Assembly (NCBI GenBank): GCA_947631205.1
Contig: CANRKL010000005.1
Coordinates: 1-38,632 of the forward strand
Direction of reading: 5' to 3'
DNA: 38,632 nt
From: an uncultured Bacilli bacterium
GTDB lineage: Bacteria; Bacillota_I; Bacilli_A; RF39; UBA660
In this document: one piece after another, positions 1,104 to 38,632 of the stretch
How the letters are laid out: the number at the start of each line of letters is the position of its first letter
How positions within the stretch are numbered: the stretch's first letter is position 1
Position numbers and translations under genes: made by a program
Notes under the pieces: model-generated
The model's input: only the letters and a program-made list of their open reading frames with translations
Databases searched by the model: none
Told to the model about the DNA's origin: nothing

Positions 1104-1122
1104 AACTTTCTAGGTGGTTTAT

Positions 1123-4100
1123 ATGCTTAATGATACTTTTAAAATGTATTTAAAAGAAATTAGTAGGTATCCTTTATTAGCAGAAGAAGAAACTAAAAGA
1201 CTAATTAAGGAATGGCAAGAAAATCATAATGTGGAAGCTTATCAAAAAGTTGTTAATTCTAACTTAAGATTAGTTATTAAACCCGCCAAAAAATACATAA
1301 ATCAAATAAATCACTTACAAATTTTAGATATTATTGAAGAAGGTAATTTAGGCTTATTAAGAGCAATTGATGATTATAATCCTGATTTAGGGTCTTTTAC
1401 AACTTATGCTTATGGTTGGATAGAAGGAAATATTTTAAAAGCTATTAATGAAAAAGAAGCAATGATAAGAAAACCTACTCACATCAAATATTTATTAGTT
1501 AAATATCTTAAGTTAATAGAAGAAAAACCTGATATTGATGATAAGTTAATATGTGAGACTTTAAATATTACTCTTAATACTTTAAAGAGAGTTAAAGAAT
1601 ATTATCAAACTGAACCAATAAGTTTAAATACTTTGATAAATGAAGAAGAAGAAGAAAGTGAAATAAGTGAGTTTCTTCCAATTAGTCACAATGATTATAA
1701 TGATTTAGTTGATAATATTAATGATAGAGAAATATATTTAGTATTTAAAGAAGTTTTAGGGGCACATGAATATTTTATTTTTTACTATCGTCTTATTAAT
1801 GATTCAAATATTTCTTTAAGAAAAATTGGTGATTATTTTCATGTTTCTGGAGAATCTATTAGAATGCTTGAAAAAAGAGTTAAGAAAAAAGTGGCGGCTT
1901 ATCTAAAAAATAAAAGATTATATCAAGCGACTTTAAAGAAAATTAAAAATAGAGAAAAAGATAATTTTAATAAATTAAAAATTACTCCTAATAATCCTTC
2001 AAATATTATTACTTACTTATACTTAAAAAATAAGATACCTTTTAGGGAACACTACTTATACTATTTAATTTATCTTAGTAACTATCATTATGAAATAGAT
2101 GATTATCAAAAAATATTTAATATTAGTTATCATGAATTAAAGGGTCTTATAAGTAACTTAAAAAAATATATAAATAATTTAAATTCTAAAGATTTTCAAG
2201 AATTTAGAGATAATCTTATGAATAAATATTTAGGATTAAAAATTTTAAAAATTAACTTAGATAGTCAAGATTTTTATTTCAAACGTTTTAAATTAACTCA
2301 AAAATATCAAAATCTAGATTTTCTAACGGTTATTAATTTATTTAATGAAATAAGCTATCACTTATCCCCTACTGATATTAGAATATTAAAAAAATATTAT
2401 AATGATTATTCGGATATGAAAGTAATTAGTCATTTAGAATTAGAAAAAAATATTAATTTAATTAAATTCAATTATTATCCTAAAGATACTAGTGTTTCTA
2501 AAAATAAACTTCTTAAAACTTTAGAAGAATATCGGAATGACTTTAGTGAAGAACAAATTTCATATTTACAAGCTTATTATTTTAATCAAATAGATAAAGA
2601 TGTTTTTCTTAAAAAGTATCCTAATTCTGGGTTAATTAAACATCATGAACATTTAGTAAATCGTTTAGAAAGATGTTATTATCATATCTTTAAGTATTTT
2701 GAAAATAATTTTAATAAAGAAAATTGGGTACAAATAAGAAGCCAATATTCAGAACGTTTTAGTGATTTGAAAAGGCAAATTTTAGACTTATATTATGGGA
2801 TTTATGATAGTCCTAAAAGTATTTTAGAAATATCTAATATTCTTCACTTAGATTATAAAAAAACTCATGCTTTTTGTCGTAATGCAAGGGATTTAGCTAT
2901 TAATATTTTAAATGGTTCAAGCGCTAAAAAGGAAATAATTAAGGAGAACTATATTCCGTATCTTAATGATTTACATTATGAATTTAAAAGTAGTATTAGA
3001 AATATTTTAAAATTATATATAATTGAAAATAAAACTTATGATGAAATAAGAGAGATAACTAGTTTATCAAAAACTAAAATATCTAATATTATAATTGAAG
3101 GAATTAAAAGAATTGATTATTATCGTTTTAATCTTTCTTCACCTTTTATTATTTCAAAAGAAGAATTACTTACTTTTTTGGATTCTCAAAATAAATTTAA
3201 TGAACAAGAAAAAGAAATACTTGTTTTAAAATATATTGATTGTTTGACAAATAAAGAAATTGAAGAAAAAACTCATGTGCAAATATCTAAAATAAATGCT
3301 ATTTCTAATAAATTTTCTAAACTTTACAACAGTTATTTAATTAAAGATATTTTGGTTAATGAAGATGATTATCAAGAAGAAATAAATAAACATCCAAGTG
3401 AGTCTTTGTTAAAAAAAGAAGAAAAAGAGTTTATCAGCTACTATTTAGGACTTACAAACTCTTATAATCCTCTTGGTCAAAAATTAGCTAAAGAAAAACT
3501 TATGGTAATGTTTTCTTTAAATCCCTCTACTTATCAGCATTTAGTTAATGATATTAGAAAAAAAATGAAAAGGTTAAAAGCAGGACTTCTTAGACCTTCT
3601 TATTCTTTTATTAAAAGAGATGATTTAGATAGAATCTTAGATGATAAACACTTACCTATTTCTTCTAAAGATAAAGATTTATTGTGTTATCTTTTTGAAT
3701 TAAAAGATTATCCTTATTATACTTTTGAAGAAGTAAGCACTATTAAAAATGAAAATGTAGATAATCTTCACCGAAGATATTATCAAATTATTGTAACTAT
3801 TTATAAGTATTTAAATCATGAAATAGATGGGAAGTATGATTTTAATGAAGATATTATGCCTATATTAAAATATTTTAGTTTGTCATCACGGGACTATATT
3901 ATTTCTTATTATAAAGATGAATTAACTTATGAGCAAATAAAAGATAAATATAATCTGACATTTAATGAGGTTGTTTCAATTTTTAGTCAGATTAAAAGTA
4001 AGATATATGATATTTTAAATAATCCGCAAGCTAAAAAGTTTGACTTTGATTTTTATTATCAAGAAAAAGATAATCCTGCCCTTCCTTATTATAGAGATAT

Positions 4101-4665
4101 AAGGTTAGCTAAACAAATTTTTGATTTGGCTTTTGGTCCTAAAAGATTAAGTAATCTAGGTATTGCTAAAGCTTTAAATTTAGATATTTCTTTATCAAAT
4201 ATTAATAGTATTATTAATGATTTTATGCTTAGTTTTTGTAAATTGAAAGATAATATTTTTAAAGAGAATACTTTTACTTATGAAGAAATATGGAGTTATT
4301 ATAAAAAAAATGAAGCTAATATGCCTAGTTATTTAAAAAATATTTATTTAAAATACTTTAAAAGAAAATGTGAACCATCATTTTTCATAATTAATGATTT
4401 AATTAAAGAAACTAAGAAAGATGCTTTTATCTACTCTTTAGCTACTAAAGAAGAAGTATTGCAACTATTAGATAAGTATAATGATAAATTACCTTATAAA
4501 GTTAAAGAAAATCTTATGAAAAATTTTAATATTTCTAAACAAAAATTTTTAAATGGTAAAGAGATAAATCATGTCTATAAATTATTAAATATTTTAGATA
4601 ATTCTTTAGAAAAAAAAGAAGCAATTAAAGAATTATATGATAAACCACCTATAAAACATCTGTAG
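1123..4665 (+). CDS. Giant sigma-70-like protein with tandem region-4-like units
   Basis: 1180 residues, against about 250-400 for a normal group 2 sigma factor. Residues 4-30 look like region 1.2 (MYLKEISRYPLL), 45-120 like region 2 (NLRLVI, IIEEGNLGLLRAIDDYNP, then SFTTYAYGWIEGNILKAI in the place of YATWWIRQAI), 121-165 like region 3, and 215-262 like region 4 (SLRKIGDYFHVSGESIRMLE). The remaining 900 residues are Lys/Asn/Tyr/Ile-rich helices with repeated HTH-like segments, clearest near 545-595, 615-668, 688-738 and 917-967 (TYEQI, TNKEIEEKTH, TYDEIREITS all sit where the region-4 HTH begins). AGGTGG precedes the ATG at 1123; the in-frame GTG at 1114 lies inside that ribosome site. It is single-copy, divergent from ireB, and ends at a hairpin terminator. 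N-terminal sigma assignment is strong; that the tail consists of duplicated region 4 is my reading by eye. Promoter specificity is unknown. Confidence 0.88.
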   Translation: MLNDTFKMYLKEISRYPLLAEEETKRLIKEWQENHNVEAYQKVVNSNLRLVIKPAKKYINQINHLQILDIIEEGNLGLLRAIDDYNPDLGSFTTYAYGWIEGNILKAINEKEAMIRKPTHIKYLLVKYLKLIEEKPDIDDKLICETLNITLNTLKRVKEYYQTEPISLNTLINEEEEESEISEFLPISHNDYNDLVDNINDREIYLVFKEVLGAHEYFIFYYRLINDSNISLRKIGDYFHVSGESIRMLEKRVKKKVAAYLKNKRLYQATLKKIKNREKDNFNKLKITPNNPSNIITYLYLKNKIPFREHYLYYLIYLSNYHYEIDDYQKIFNISYHELKGLISNLKKYINNLNSKDFQEFRDNLMNKYLGLKILKINLDSQDFYFKRFKLTQKYQNLDFLTVINLFNEISYHLSPTDIRILKKYYNDYSDMKVISHLELEKNINLIKFNYYPKDTSVSKNKLLKTLEEYRNDFSEEQISYLQAYYFNQIDKDVFLKKYPNSGLIKHHEHLVNRLERCYYHIFKYFENNFNKENWVQIRSQYSERFSDLKRQILDLYYGIYDSPKSILEISNILHLDYKKTHAFCRNARDLAINILNGSSAKKEIIKENYIPYLNDLHYEFKSSIRNILKLYIIENKTYDEIREITSLSKTKISNIIIEGIKRIDYYRFNLSSPFIISKEELLTFLDSQNKFNEQEKEILVLKYIDCLTNKEIEEKTHVQISKINAISNKFSKLYNSYLIKDILVNEDDYQEEINKHPSESLLKKEEKEFISYYLGLTNSYNPLGQKLAKEKLMVMFSLNPSTYQHLVNDIRKKMKRLKAGLLRPSYSFIKRDDLDRILDDKHLPISSKDKDLLCYLFELKDYPYYTFEEVSTIKNENVDNLHRRYYQIIVTIYKYLNHEIDGKYDFNEDIMPILKYFSLSSRDYIISYYKDELTYEQIKDKYNLTFNEVVSIFSQIKSKIYDILNNPQAKKFDFDFYYQEKDNPALPYYRDIRLAKQIFDLAFGPKRLSNLGIAKALNLDISLSNINSIINDFMLSFCKLKDNIFKENTFTYEEIWSYYKKNEANMPSYLKNIYLKYFKRKCEPSFFIINDLIKETKKDAFIYSLATKEEVLQLLDKYNDKLPYKVKENLMKNFNISKQKFLNGKEINHVYKLLNILDNSLEKKEAIKELYDKPPIKHL

Positions 4666-36866: not shown

Positions 36867-37600
36867 ATGAAAAATAAAGTTTTAAAATATTTACTTATCA
36901 CTTTTGGAATAAGCTGGATATGCTGGTTAGTAGTTATTTTATTCATTCAATTTGGTCTTTCTAAATATCCAGATGTTTTAAGTTGCACTATAGAAATTAT
37001 AGGAACTTTAGCTCCTACTATTGCATCAATTATGTTATTAGAAGAAAAGAAGAATTTTAAAAACATTGTGAAATTTATATTTAAAAAAATGAAAAAACTT
37101 TTTTGTATGTAATTATTTTTAGTATTATTTTGATTTTTAGTTTTGCATTTATTTGTAATTATAATAAAGAAATTCCATTTTATTTTATAGTACCATTATT
37201 TATATATGCTATAACTTTTGGCGGAGGTTTTGAGGAATTAGGTTGGAGAGGAATACTGCAACCTAATTTAGAAAAAAAGCATTCATTTATTGTTAATGCA
37301 ATAATAACTGAAATTATATGGGGACTATGGCATATTCCATTACAAATAATTCAAGGATTTGTTTTATTTGATCCTAATTTTGTTCCATTTATGTTTGGAA
37401 TTATTATGTTTAGTATTGTTTTAGCATATATTTATAAGAAAACGAATTCTATATTTTATTGTGCTTTTCTACACAGTTTGTATAATACTTTAACAACAAT
37501 TTTTATTGCCAACAATACTGAAGTATTAATGATAGAGTTTGTACTTGCATTCATATCTATATCTTTATATTACAAAGAAAAATATATGAATAAAGTATAA
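36867..37600 (+). pseudogene. CPBP-family intramembrane metalloprotease, frameshifted
   Basis: Two frames together give about 244 residues, the normal size for a CPBP (CAAX/bacteriocin-processing, Abi) protease. The first (36867-37112) has two membrane helices and ends after FKKMKKLFCM. The second (37103-37600) carries the catalytic motifs FEELGWRG (EExxxR), LWHIPLQ and FLHSLYN, with four or more helices. The break lies at six T (37099-37104); a seventh T would read KKLFLYVIIFSII and join them. GGTTGGTGA precedes the ATG. It may be a true pseudogene, a sequencing error or a switchable tract. Such proteases process peptides or give bacteriocin self-immunity in some species. Confidence 0.85.
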
Positions 37601-37666: not shown

Positions 37667-37699
37667 GTTGCCGAAAAGTTGCCGAAAAGTTGCCGAAAA
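37667..37699 (+). repeat. Three tandem 11-bp repeats
   Basis: GTTGCCGAAAA three times without interruption, in a region with no gene, 67 bp after the protease frame and 14 bp before the antisense RNA promoter. Much richer in G/C than its surroundings. Confidence 0.9.
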
Positions 37700-37712: not shown

Positions 37713-37741
37713 TTGTAAAAAGGCCGTTTTTATGTTATTAT
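37713..37741 (+). promoter_or_regulatory. Promoter of the antisense RNA
   Basis: TTGTAA (37713-37718), 17-bp spacer, TGTTATTAT with TATTAT at 37736-37741 (extended -10). Confidence 0.6.
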
Positions 37742-37747
37742 GTATTT

Positions 37748-37863
37748 GTCAAGGAAACTTGCATAAAATAAAAAAGGAACATTCAGTTTTGCTATGTTGA
37801 ATGTCTACCCAATTAATATTGTTTAGACATTTAATTCAAATGTGAATTAAATGTCATTTTTTT
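37748..37863 (+). ncRNA. Predicted antitoxin RNA, convergent with the toxin mRNA
   Basis: About 115 nt with three hairpins: CAAG-GAAA-CTTG at the 5' end (37750-37761), a 7-bp stem ACATTCA/TGAATGT (37779-37785 and 37798-37804), and a perfect 12-bp terminator stem (37826-37837 with 37844-37855) followed by seven T. Its 3' part is complementary to the last codon and 3' UTR of the 30-residue peptide gene on the other strand, the arrangement known from RatA/txpA and SR4/bsrG. Confidence 0.6.
37763..37804 (-). terminator. Probable terminator of the toxin mRNA
   Basis: On the minus strand the 7-bp stem ACATTCA/TGAATGT is followed by TCC and then TTTTTTATTTTA. Confidence 0.5.
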
Positions 37864-37946
37864 ATAACTACTATCATAATGATAATGAGAAATAAAATGA
37901 TAGCAATGAGCTTTAGAACTTTTACTACAAAAGTCTTAGTTTTCAT
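37854..37946 (-). CDS. 30-residue hydrophobic peptide, type I toxin-like
   Basis: Reads MKTKTFVVKVLKLIAI then ILFLIIIMIVVIKK: a basic N-terminus, one membrane helix of about 18 residues and a Lys-Lys end, like Fst/TxpA/BsrG-type toxins that damage membranes. A near-perfect ribosome site AGGAGG lies 9 nt before the ATG but can pair with ACCTCT upstream (37955-37980), which would hide it, a usual feature of type I toxin mRNAs. It has its own promoter and a long 5' leader. A convergent structured RNA overlaps the 3' end. No homologue is recognised by sequence; the call rests on architecture. Confidence 0.6.
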   Translation of the reverse strand: MKTKTFVVKVLKLIAIILFLIIIMIVVIKK

Positions 37947-38008
37947 TTTATCAAACCTCCTCTCCACAAAGATTAGAGGTAGACACTCAACAACCGAAGT
38001 TCGAGAGT

Positions 38009-38038
38009 ATTGTGCCAAACATTTGTTTTTTTATACAA
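38009..38038 (-). promoter_or_regulatory. Promoter of the toxin-like peptide
   Basis: Minus strand TTGTAT (38033-38038), 18-bp spacer, TGGCACAAT with CACAAT at 38009-38014. Start near 38002 gives a leader of about 55 nt containing an AAC-TTCG-GTT hairpin. Confidence 0.5.
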
Positions 38039-38065
38039 GCAATTTTAATTCTAAATTTATGAAAG

Positions 38066-38166
38066 TTTAGAAAATACACTTGCTTATTGACCAAGATAAT
38101 GAGTATTTAAAAAATACTAATATTATGTTATTTTTAAAAAAAAGATGATATAATACCCTTTGAAAG
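38066..38166 (+). repeat. Dispersed 100-bp repeat, copy 2
   Basis: About 95% identical to 38459-38558. It includes TATAAT (38149-38154) and sits directly before the 62-residue ORF, so it may act as that gene's promoter region. Confidence 0.85.
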
Positions 38167-38176
38167 AAGTGATGAT

Positions 38177-38365
38177 ATGACAATACGAGTCCGAGTTCTA
38201 AATGGCTACTCAAAAAACATACCTAAAAATCTAAAAAAAGAACCTGTTATTTTAACGCCTGAGTATGTTAGAAGACTAAATGAACAAATCGCATATAATA
38301 TTCTTAAAAATCAAATAAATTCTCAGCCTGATGTTTTCACTTTAAAAAAAGTCATCAAGCATTAG
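38177..38365 (+). CDS. Small basic protein, unknown
   Basis: 62 residues, MTIRVRVLNGYSKNIP then a helical, basic part (EYVRRLNEQIAYNILKNQI). No family recognised. GTGATG lies just before the ATG and TATAAT of the dispersed repeat ends 22 nt upstream. Likely a real but short accessory gene; size and charge would fit a DNA-binding or mobile-element protein, which is speculation. Confidence 0.5.
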   Translation: MTIRVRVLNGYSKNIPKNLKKEPVILTPEYVRRLNEQIAYNILKNQINSQPDVFTLKKVIKH

Positions 38366-38632
38366 TTGATTTGATTATTGCTTTGTTTAGTATAACTGCT
38401 AAAAAATAGCGAGAATAATCCTTATATTGAATTTAAAAAATTTACTGATTTTATATAATTTAGAAAACACACTTGCATATTGACCAAGATAATGATTATT
38501 TAAAAAATACTAATATTATGTTATTTTTAAAAAAAGGTGATATAATACCCTTCGAAAGATAGTGTGAAAAGTTTTATGGAAAATTAATAACACTAGTTGA
38601 AAAAGATATTAAGATGAAAATCTTGATATAAA
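38366..38632. other. Intergenic end of window with repeat copy 3
   Basis: No gene is seen. The stretch holds dispersed repeat copy 3 (38459-38558) and after it only a 7-codon frame. Confidence 0.6.
38459..38558 (+). repeat. Dispersed 100-bp repeat, copy 3
   Basis: Matches 38066-38166 with about five substitutions and one missing A; TATAAT is at 38541-38546. Any gene it serves would lie beyond the window. Confidence 0.85.

Follow-up and report, generated by a model that had tools for sequence, protein, structure and literature searches.

A candidate type I toxin-antitoxin family with a possible leader switch in uncultured RF39 Bacilli

Described systems and the locus compared

Among described type I toxin-antitoxin (TA) systems, bsrG/SR4 (Bacillus subtilis SPbeta) and txpA/RatA (B. 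subtilis) pair a toxin gene with an antisense RNA overlapping its 3' end, and SR4 is reported to lengthen the sequestration of the bsrG Shine-Dalgarno (SD) sequence from 4 to 8 base pairs (bp) (PMC6562991). In AapA1 and hok, the toxin mRNA is kept closed by a 5'-3' interaction until processing at its 3' end opens it (PMC8167048; PMC6733600). Type I systems seem phylogenetically narrow, partly since searches depend on similarity to known loci (PMC12390103). The locus considered here lies at positions 37,713-38,038 of the window, that is, the whole 38,632-nucleotide (nt) stretch of contig CANRKL010000005.1 (GCA_947631205.1), from an uncultured Bacilli bacterium of the RF39 lineage. A first-pass annotation had proposed it, from the sequence alone, as a type I TA locus, with coordinates running from -35 box to -35 box. 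It is probably such a module: the minus strand would give a ~235-nt mRNA for a single-helix membrane peptide of 30 amino acids (aa), and the plus strand, from a convergent promoter, a ~115-nt antisense RNA. All the elements listed in that annotation are present (sequence, scans, folding) and conserved in 117 copies, and comparative tests (promoters, selection on the open reading frame (ORF), SD masking, covariation) argue for the TA reading, as do copies that recur in tandem or several to a genome and some toxin ORFs that are broken next to an antisense part still intact. The pairing of the mRNA's two ends and a large multi-toxin family are additions to it.

As in bsrG/SR4, the antisense RNA lies across the 3' end of an mRNA in which the SD is masked, and its binding is predicted to extend this masking and to promote decay. 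Unlike in bsrG/SR4, to which no Pfam match connects the peptide, the leader is predicted to pair alternately with its own SD and with the 3' arm of the mRNA, the latter through a 5'-3' interaction covarying family-wide. With txpA/RatA, the locus shares convergent genes overlapping at their 3' ends and a small single-helix peptide, but it differs by the absence of Hol_Tox matches at the loci and by a predicted translational switch besides decay. The layout of these two B. subtilis systems, recognized at first reading, is present as a convergent 3' overlap (93 nt predicted, vs. ~100 nt in TxpA/BsrG), while sequence membership was found in neither. AapA/IsoA (Helicobacter pylori) also has a 5'-3' interaction in the toxin mRNA, a local anti-SD hairpin, and multi-copy chromosomal loci, and hok/Sok has a 5'-3' fold-back. 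In contrast to both, the antisense RNA covers the 3' end here, and folding predicts that the 3' end opens the SD, trimming it in silico closing the SD rather than opening it; no mok-like coupled frame was noted, and the peptide differs from that of hok/Sok. Convergent small RNAs and a ~30-aa peptide are likewise found in fst/RNAII (par, Enterococcus faecalis pAD1), but here no repeat-mediated 5' contact was noted, and Fst_toxin (PF13955) has no match at the TA loci.

For the module, whose peptide was unrecognized at first reading, searches of Pfam, PHROGs, Rfam, and PDB gave no match that could be considered meaningful. Hol_Tox (PF16935) gave nothing above the cut-off, and nothing at the TA loci in seven genomes, and the Rfam 15 covariance models revealed no known RNA antitoxin. 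Weak matches of a few members to NCBIfam PRK13682 (best E 0.006) were judged to be due to chance and low complexity. These searches place the family in no named toxin family, although an earlier listing (in T1TAdb or computational surveys) is possible; within the set of papers searched, none combined 'RF39' and 'toxin-antitoxin'.

Anatomy, conservation and covariation

The analysis was computational, covering anatomy, conservation, coding selection, covariation, and folding energies. Two features expected of a type I system are a small hydrophobic peptide gene with an SD, conserved as a protein, and an antisense RNA gene overlapping the toxin mRNA; both were found, the latter as a predicted gene whose promoter and terminator are separate from those of the toxin and conserved. 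The toxin mRNA promoter (minus strand, 38,009-38,038; TTGTAT-18-CACAAT, extended TG) is weak in the window copy, and its CTTG and TATAAT columns are kept in the family. From this promoter to its terminator, the predicted mRNA spans 37,768-38,002 (family homology begins near 37,997). Its leader contains an arm, TTGAGTGTCTACC (37,978-37,990), forming 13 pairs with the mRNA 3' arm GGTAGACATTCAA (37,797-37,809), which is also the target of the antisense RNA, and an anti-SD, ACCTC (37,976-37,980; CAAATCTC in variant copies), that pairs with the conserved SD AGGAGG (37,956-37,961). The ORF behind it, MKTKTFVVKVLKLIAIILFLIIIMIVVIKK (37,854-37,946; codons 37,946-37,857, stop TGA 37,856-37,854), encodes the 30-residue peptide that had been proposed. 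The mRNA terminator (37,770-37,805) has a GACATTCA/TGAATGTTC stem, each pair of which is kept in 76-93 of 93 copies, followed by T6; the terminator scan passed over it because of its 12-nt loop.

On the plus strand, the promoter (37,713-37,741; TTGTAA-17-TATTAT, extended TG; family consensus TTGACA) was found by scan and is followed by the predicted antitoxin RNA (37,748-37,862, promoter to terminator), in agreement with the ~115-nt terminated RNA previously proposed. It begins with a CAAG-GAAA-CTTG hairpin (37,750-37,761) and ends with a 13-bp stem and T-run (37,826-37,863; stem 37,826-37,855), also detected by scan. The transcripts would overlap over ~37,770-37,862, so that the antisense RNA spans the final ~93 nt of the toxin transcript, where roughly 90 nt had been estimated. 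Terminator-like sites are in excess in the region (2 vs. 0.3 expected), whereas promoter-like sites, taken alone, are at chance level (17 vs. 15.6 expected). Both RNAs fold more stably than shuffled sequences (z = -4.35 for the antisense RNA, -7.39 for the toxin mRNA).

In an alignment of the 117 copies with 100-nt flanks, conservation spans from the mRNA -35 (CTTG) to the antisense -35 and drops outside. Between these diverging flanks, the two convergent promoters, the leader, the SD, the ORF, the two terminators, and the hairpin at the antisense 5' end are all conserved, which excludes chance. The antisense promoter region scores 9.6 of 12 against the sigma-70 consensus (shuffles, 8.4 of 12). 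Exactly 30 aa are encoded by 99 of the 117 copies, and several copies have a broken ORF or have lost the start codon. The ratio of non-synonymous to synonymous substitution rates (dN/dS) is 0.44 in the ORF, and the corresponding ratio pN/pS is 0.54 in the toxin frame vs. 0.82 and 0.90 in the alternative frames; judging from these codon patterns, the ORF is under purifying selection.

Consensus folding of 93 diverse copies with RNAalifold recovered, unaided, a helix that joins the leader to the 3' end of the mRNA. Over its 13 bp, 95.5% of positions are paired, vs. 28-44% in slid controls, and the helix shows 29 double-change cells vs. 5.6 in shuffles, which do not control for relatedness. The partners are GUUGUUGAGUGUCUACC and GGUAGACAUUCAAC in subfamily A, and GUGAGUGUCGUCCUC and GAGG(A)CGACAUUCAC in subfamily B. 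The outer GGGAAUAU:AUGUUCCC part of this stem, visible in single folds, is missing from the whole-alignment RNAalifold structure, probably owing to misalignment by MAFFT. The antisense terminator stem covaries (one pair is U-A in 42 copies and C-G in 41), and covariation is also seen over 73 loci at the pair that closes the hairpin of the antisense 5' end (C-G 53, G-C 14, U-A 1, U-G 3, unpaired 2).

A possible leader switch and its rivals

The first-pass annotation had also proposed that the leader can mask AGGAGG. This holds in the fold of leader plus ORF; in the full-length fold, masking is weaker because the 5' part of the leader has the 3' end of the mRNA as a further partner. Over the 93 copies, the energy needed to open the SD is 4.03 kcal/mol for the full-length transcript vs. 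6.79 for leader plus ORF, the SD being tighter in the latter in 94% of copies. With shuffled leaders, the difference is gone (4.20 full length, 3.97 leader plus ORF). Forty-six loci with other toxins behave in the same direction (5.57 vs. 7.75), as do six members checked by hand. The anti-SD lies within or next to the part of the leader engaged by the 3' arm. Since opening is cheaper in the full-length mRNA and the effect is lost on leader shuffling, the 3' arm is best described as an anti-anti-SD.

The leader would, in the mechanism suggested by these folds, pair in one of two ways: with its own SD, as a local ACCUC:GAGGU hairpin, or with the 3' arm (GGUAGACAUUCAA). The 3' end, once made, would draw the leader off, making the SD easier to open, and the peptide would be toxic by inserting into the membrane. 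The antisense RNA, which resembles the leader (GUUGAAUGUCUACC vs. GUUGAGUGUCUACC) because it is complementary to the 3' arm, would capture this arm and displace the leader; the latter would return to the SD, blocking translation, and the long sense/antisense duplex would presumably be cut by RNase III. This leader-switch step, derived from equilibrium folding, is put forward tentatively, its chances being slightly short of even; the RNase III role, the RNA half-lives, and the switch itself are what we infer.

Several points weigh against this scheme or the TA reading as a whole. The mean unpaired probability of the SD is 0.14 in the full-length fold, where it is, thus, still mostly paired, and the 'open' state may need an additional step. 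Equilibrium folding leaves out kinetics, and a leader occupying the 3' arm in the full-length mRNA could slow antisense binding. The leader/3'-arm covariation is confined largely to a few positions and partly reflects the two subfamilies. About one sixth of the aligned copies do not have the exact 30-aa ORF, and transcription and toxicity are presumed from computation.

A long 5'-3' interaction conserved with covariation is also what AapA1 and hok display (PMC8167048; PMC6733600), so that the pairing could instead keep the full-length mRNA inert until 3' trimming activates it. This type I mode of action is unlikely here, as the SD becomes harder to open without the 3' region in the large majority of copies noted above, stepwise trimming of the window mRNA closes the SD in folding, and the antisense RNA overlaps the mRNA 3' end, not the 5' region. 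Alternatively, the antisense RNA could, as in txpA/RatA, solely trigger RNase III decay, the 5'-3' pairing serving mRNA stability; the convergent overlap is of a similar kind, and RatA and SR5 bring no refolding (PMC6562991). With the SD-lock energetics tracking the availability of the 3' arm across different toxin groups, this option has perhaps one chance in a few.

Toxicity being presumed, and the ORFs being mostly intact and under purifying selection, the peptide might also be a small membrane protein under antisense control that regulates the cell rather than poisoning it. This is improbable, because a toxin would better account for the translation safeguards, the multiple and tandem copies, the spread from genus to genus, the exchange of peptides on a single RNA chassis, and the frameshifted copies. 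Finally, the many intergenic copies in unrelated contexts, with high identity between genera, might recall a dispersed repeat resembling miniature inverted-repeat transposable elements (MITEs), with an incidental ORF and promoters, but codon-level selection, covarying structures, and the recurrence of the same layout with different sequences make this very hard to sustain.

Other toxins, distribution and surroundings

Additional loci were reached by following short homologous stretches at the 5' end of the antisense RNA. The motif TTTTATTTTATGN{0,2}AAGTTTCCTTNA occurs in 43 of 117 genomes, and its reversed control pattern in none. A strong 5'-3' duplex is present in 54 of the 73 loci anchored on this motif; the other 19 lack it and appear antisense-only or decayed. 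The toxins of the 54 duplex loci, grouped by eye and regular expression, fall into MKTKTF/KKRxF (5), KKDFLI (20), KYLC (9), KRE..FIIILLLF (14), and LKKFIL-type (2) groups, plus one other, three loci having no intact ORF. On this sequence grouping, the RNA chassis is a carrier of at least six toxin groups, which may be distantly related to each other. The broader proposal, that on this common chassis the 3' end activates and the antitoxin RNA mimics the leader, the reverse of hok/AapA logic, is possible but leans toward doubtful. The genome studied itself bears a second toxin type, MKKEDNKDKQLFIIIILLFLVIYMLLIFK, at loci on contigs C34, C26, and C9; the ORF is intact on C34 (L274) and frameshifted on C26 (L273) and C9 (L275), where the antisense part is kept, and these frameshifts are possibly assembly errors. 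At loci L341, L375, and L342, the antisense promoter and the 5' hairpin are present without a toxin ORF; L341 and L375 have a different terminator stem in common, and these loci are possible orphan antitoxins.

One RNA architecture (a ~25-nt motif and a 5'-3' duplex) marks loci numbering in the hundreds, whose toxins form at least six sequence groups, providing a handle for finding type I modules independently of toxin sequence. The natural sense/antisense pairs found here may be orthogonal: if the switch is true, leader, 3' arm, and antisense RNA would change together, giving modules without cross-reaction. The family also offers a clear test of whether the 3' end of a toxin mRNA can switch translation on.

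DNA homologues are carried by roughly three quarters of the species sampled in this bacterium's family (218 of 291 genomes, 126 of 150 genera) and by 167 of 241 genomes of an order sample. The peptide itself, for which a search of relatives for MKTKTF-like peptides had been advised, was found in 130 of the 291. In a class sample, a single copy (L285, G545:C32; ~80% identical) lies outside the family, among ~258 such genomes, and could be due to transfer or contamination. Among the matches listed, the named carriers of the leader pattern are uncultured or metagenome-assembled entries under Bacilli, 'Tenericutes', Firmicutes, and the like, many from gut samples and including Candidatus Onthousia and Candidatus Ventrenecus; the host family is known here only through metagenome-assembled or uncultured records. 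Phage and plasmid collections contained no match to the family, nor IMG/VR to the leader pattern. The window hisS gene is 68-69% identical to those of two congeneric genomes. Since the TA DNA is ~90-93% identical in seven genomes of other genera where hisS is below blastn detection, horizontal transfer between genera appears to be the simplest reading.

Several copies per genome are common, some in tandem. They mostly lie between genes, 2 of 115 overlapping a long ORF, and adjoin assorted housekeeping genes. Mobile-element families are not enriched among the neighbour families listed for 100 scanned neighbour genes (neighbours of L149-L216); dihydrouridine synthase accounts for five of these genes, its neighbourhood being a possible preferred site. 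A U-tract motif match on the same contig (20,977-20,992) was rejected, as it lies upstream of another gene, without TA anatomy.

Elsewhere in the window, a direct repeat of ~100 bp (38,060-38,170 and 38,460-38,560) contains a core resembling a promoter (TTGACC..GATATAATACCC), this core being absent from every other locus fetched. The first copy of the repeat lies just upstream of a 62-aa ORF (38,177-38,365) with a sub-threshold EntA_Immun match (E 0.05). On the other side of the locus, a CAAX/Rce1-like membrane protease (36,867-37,600) is divided over two frames of 81 and 165 aa that overlap, and is possibly frameshifted, and three tandem TTGCCGAAAAG units (37,668-37,699) lie between this gene and the antisense promoter. 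Far from the locus, positions 1,114-4,665 encode an 1183-aa protein with an N-terminal sigma-70 part (regions 1.2, 2, and 4), whose ~900 further residues gave only a weak second region-4 match.
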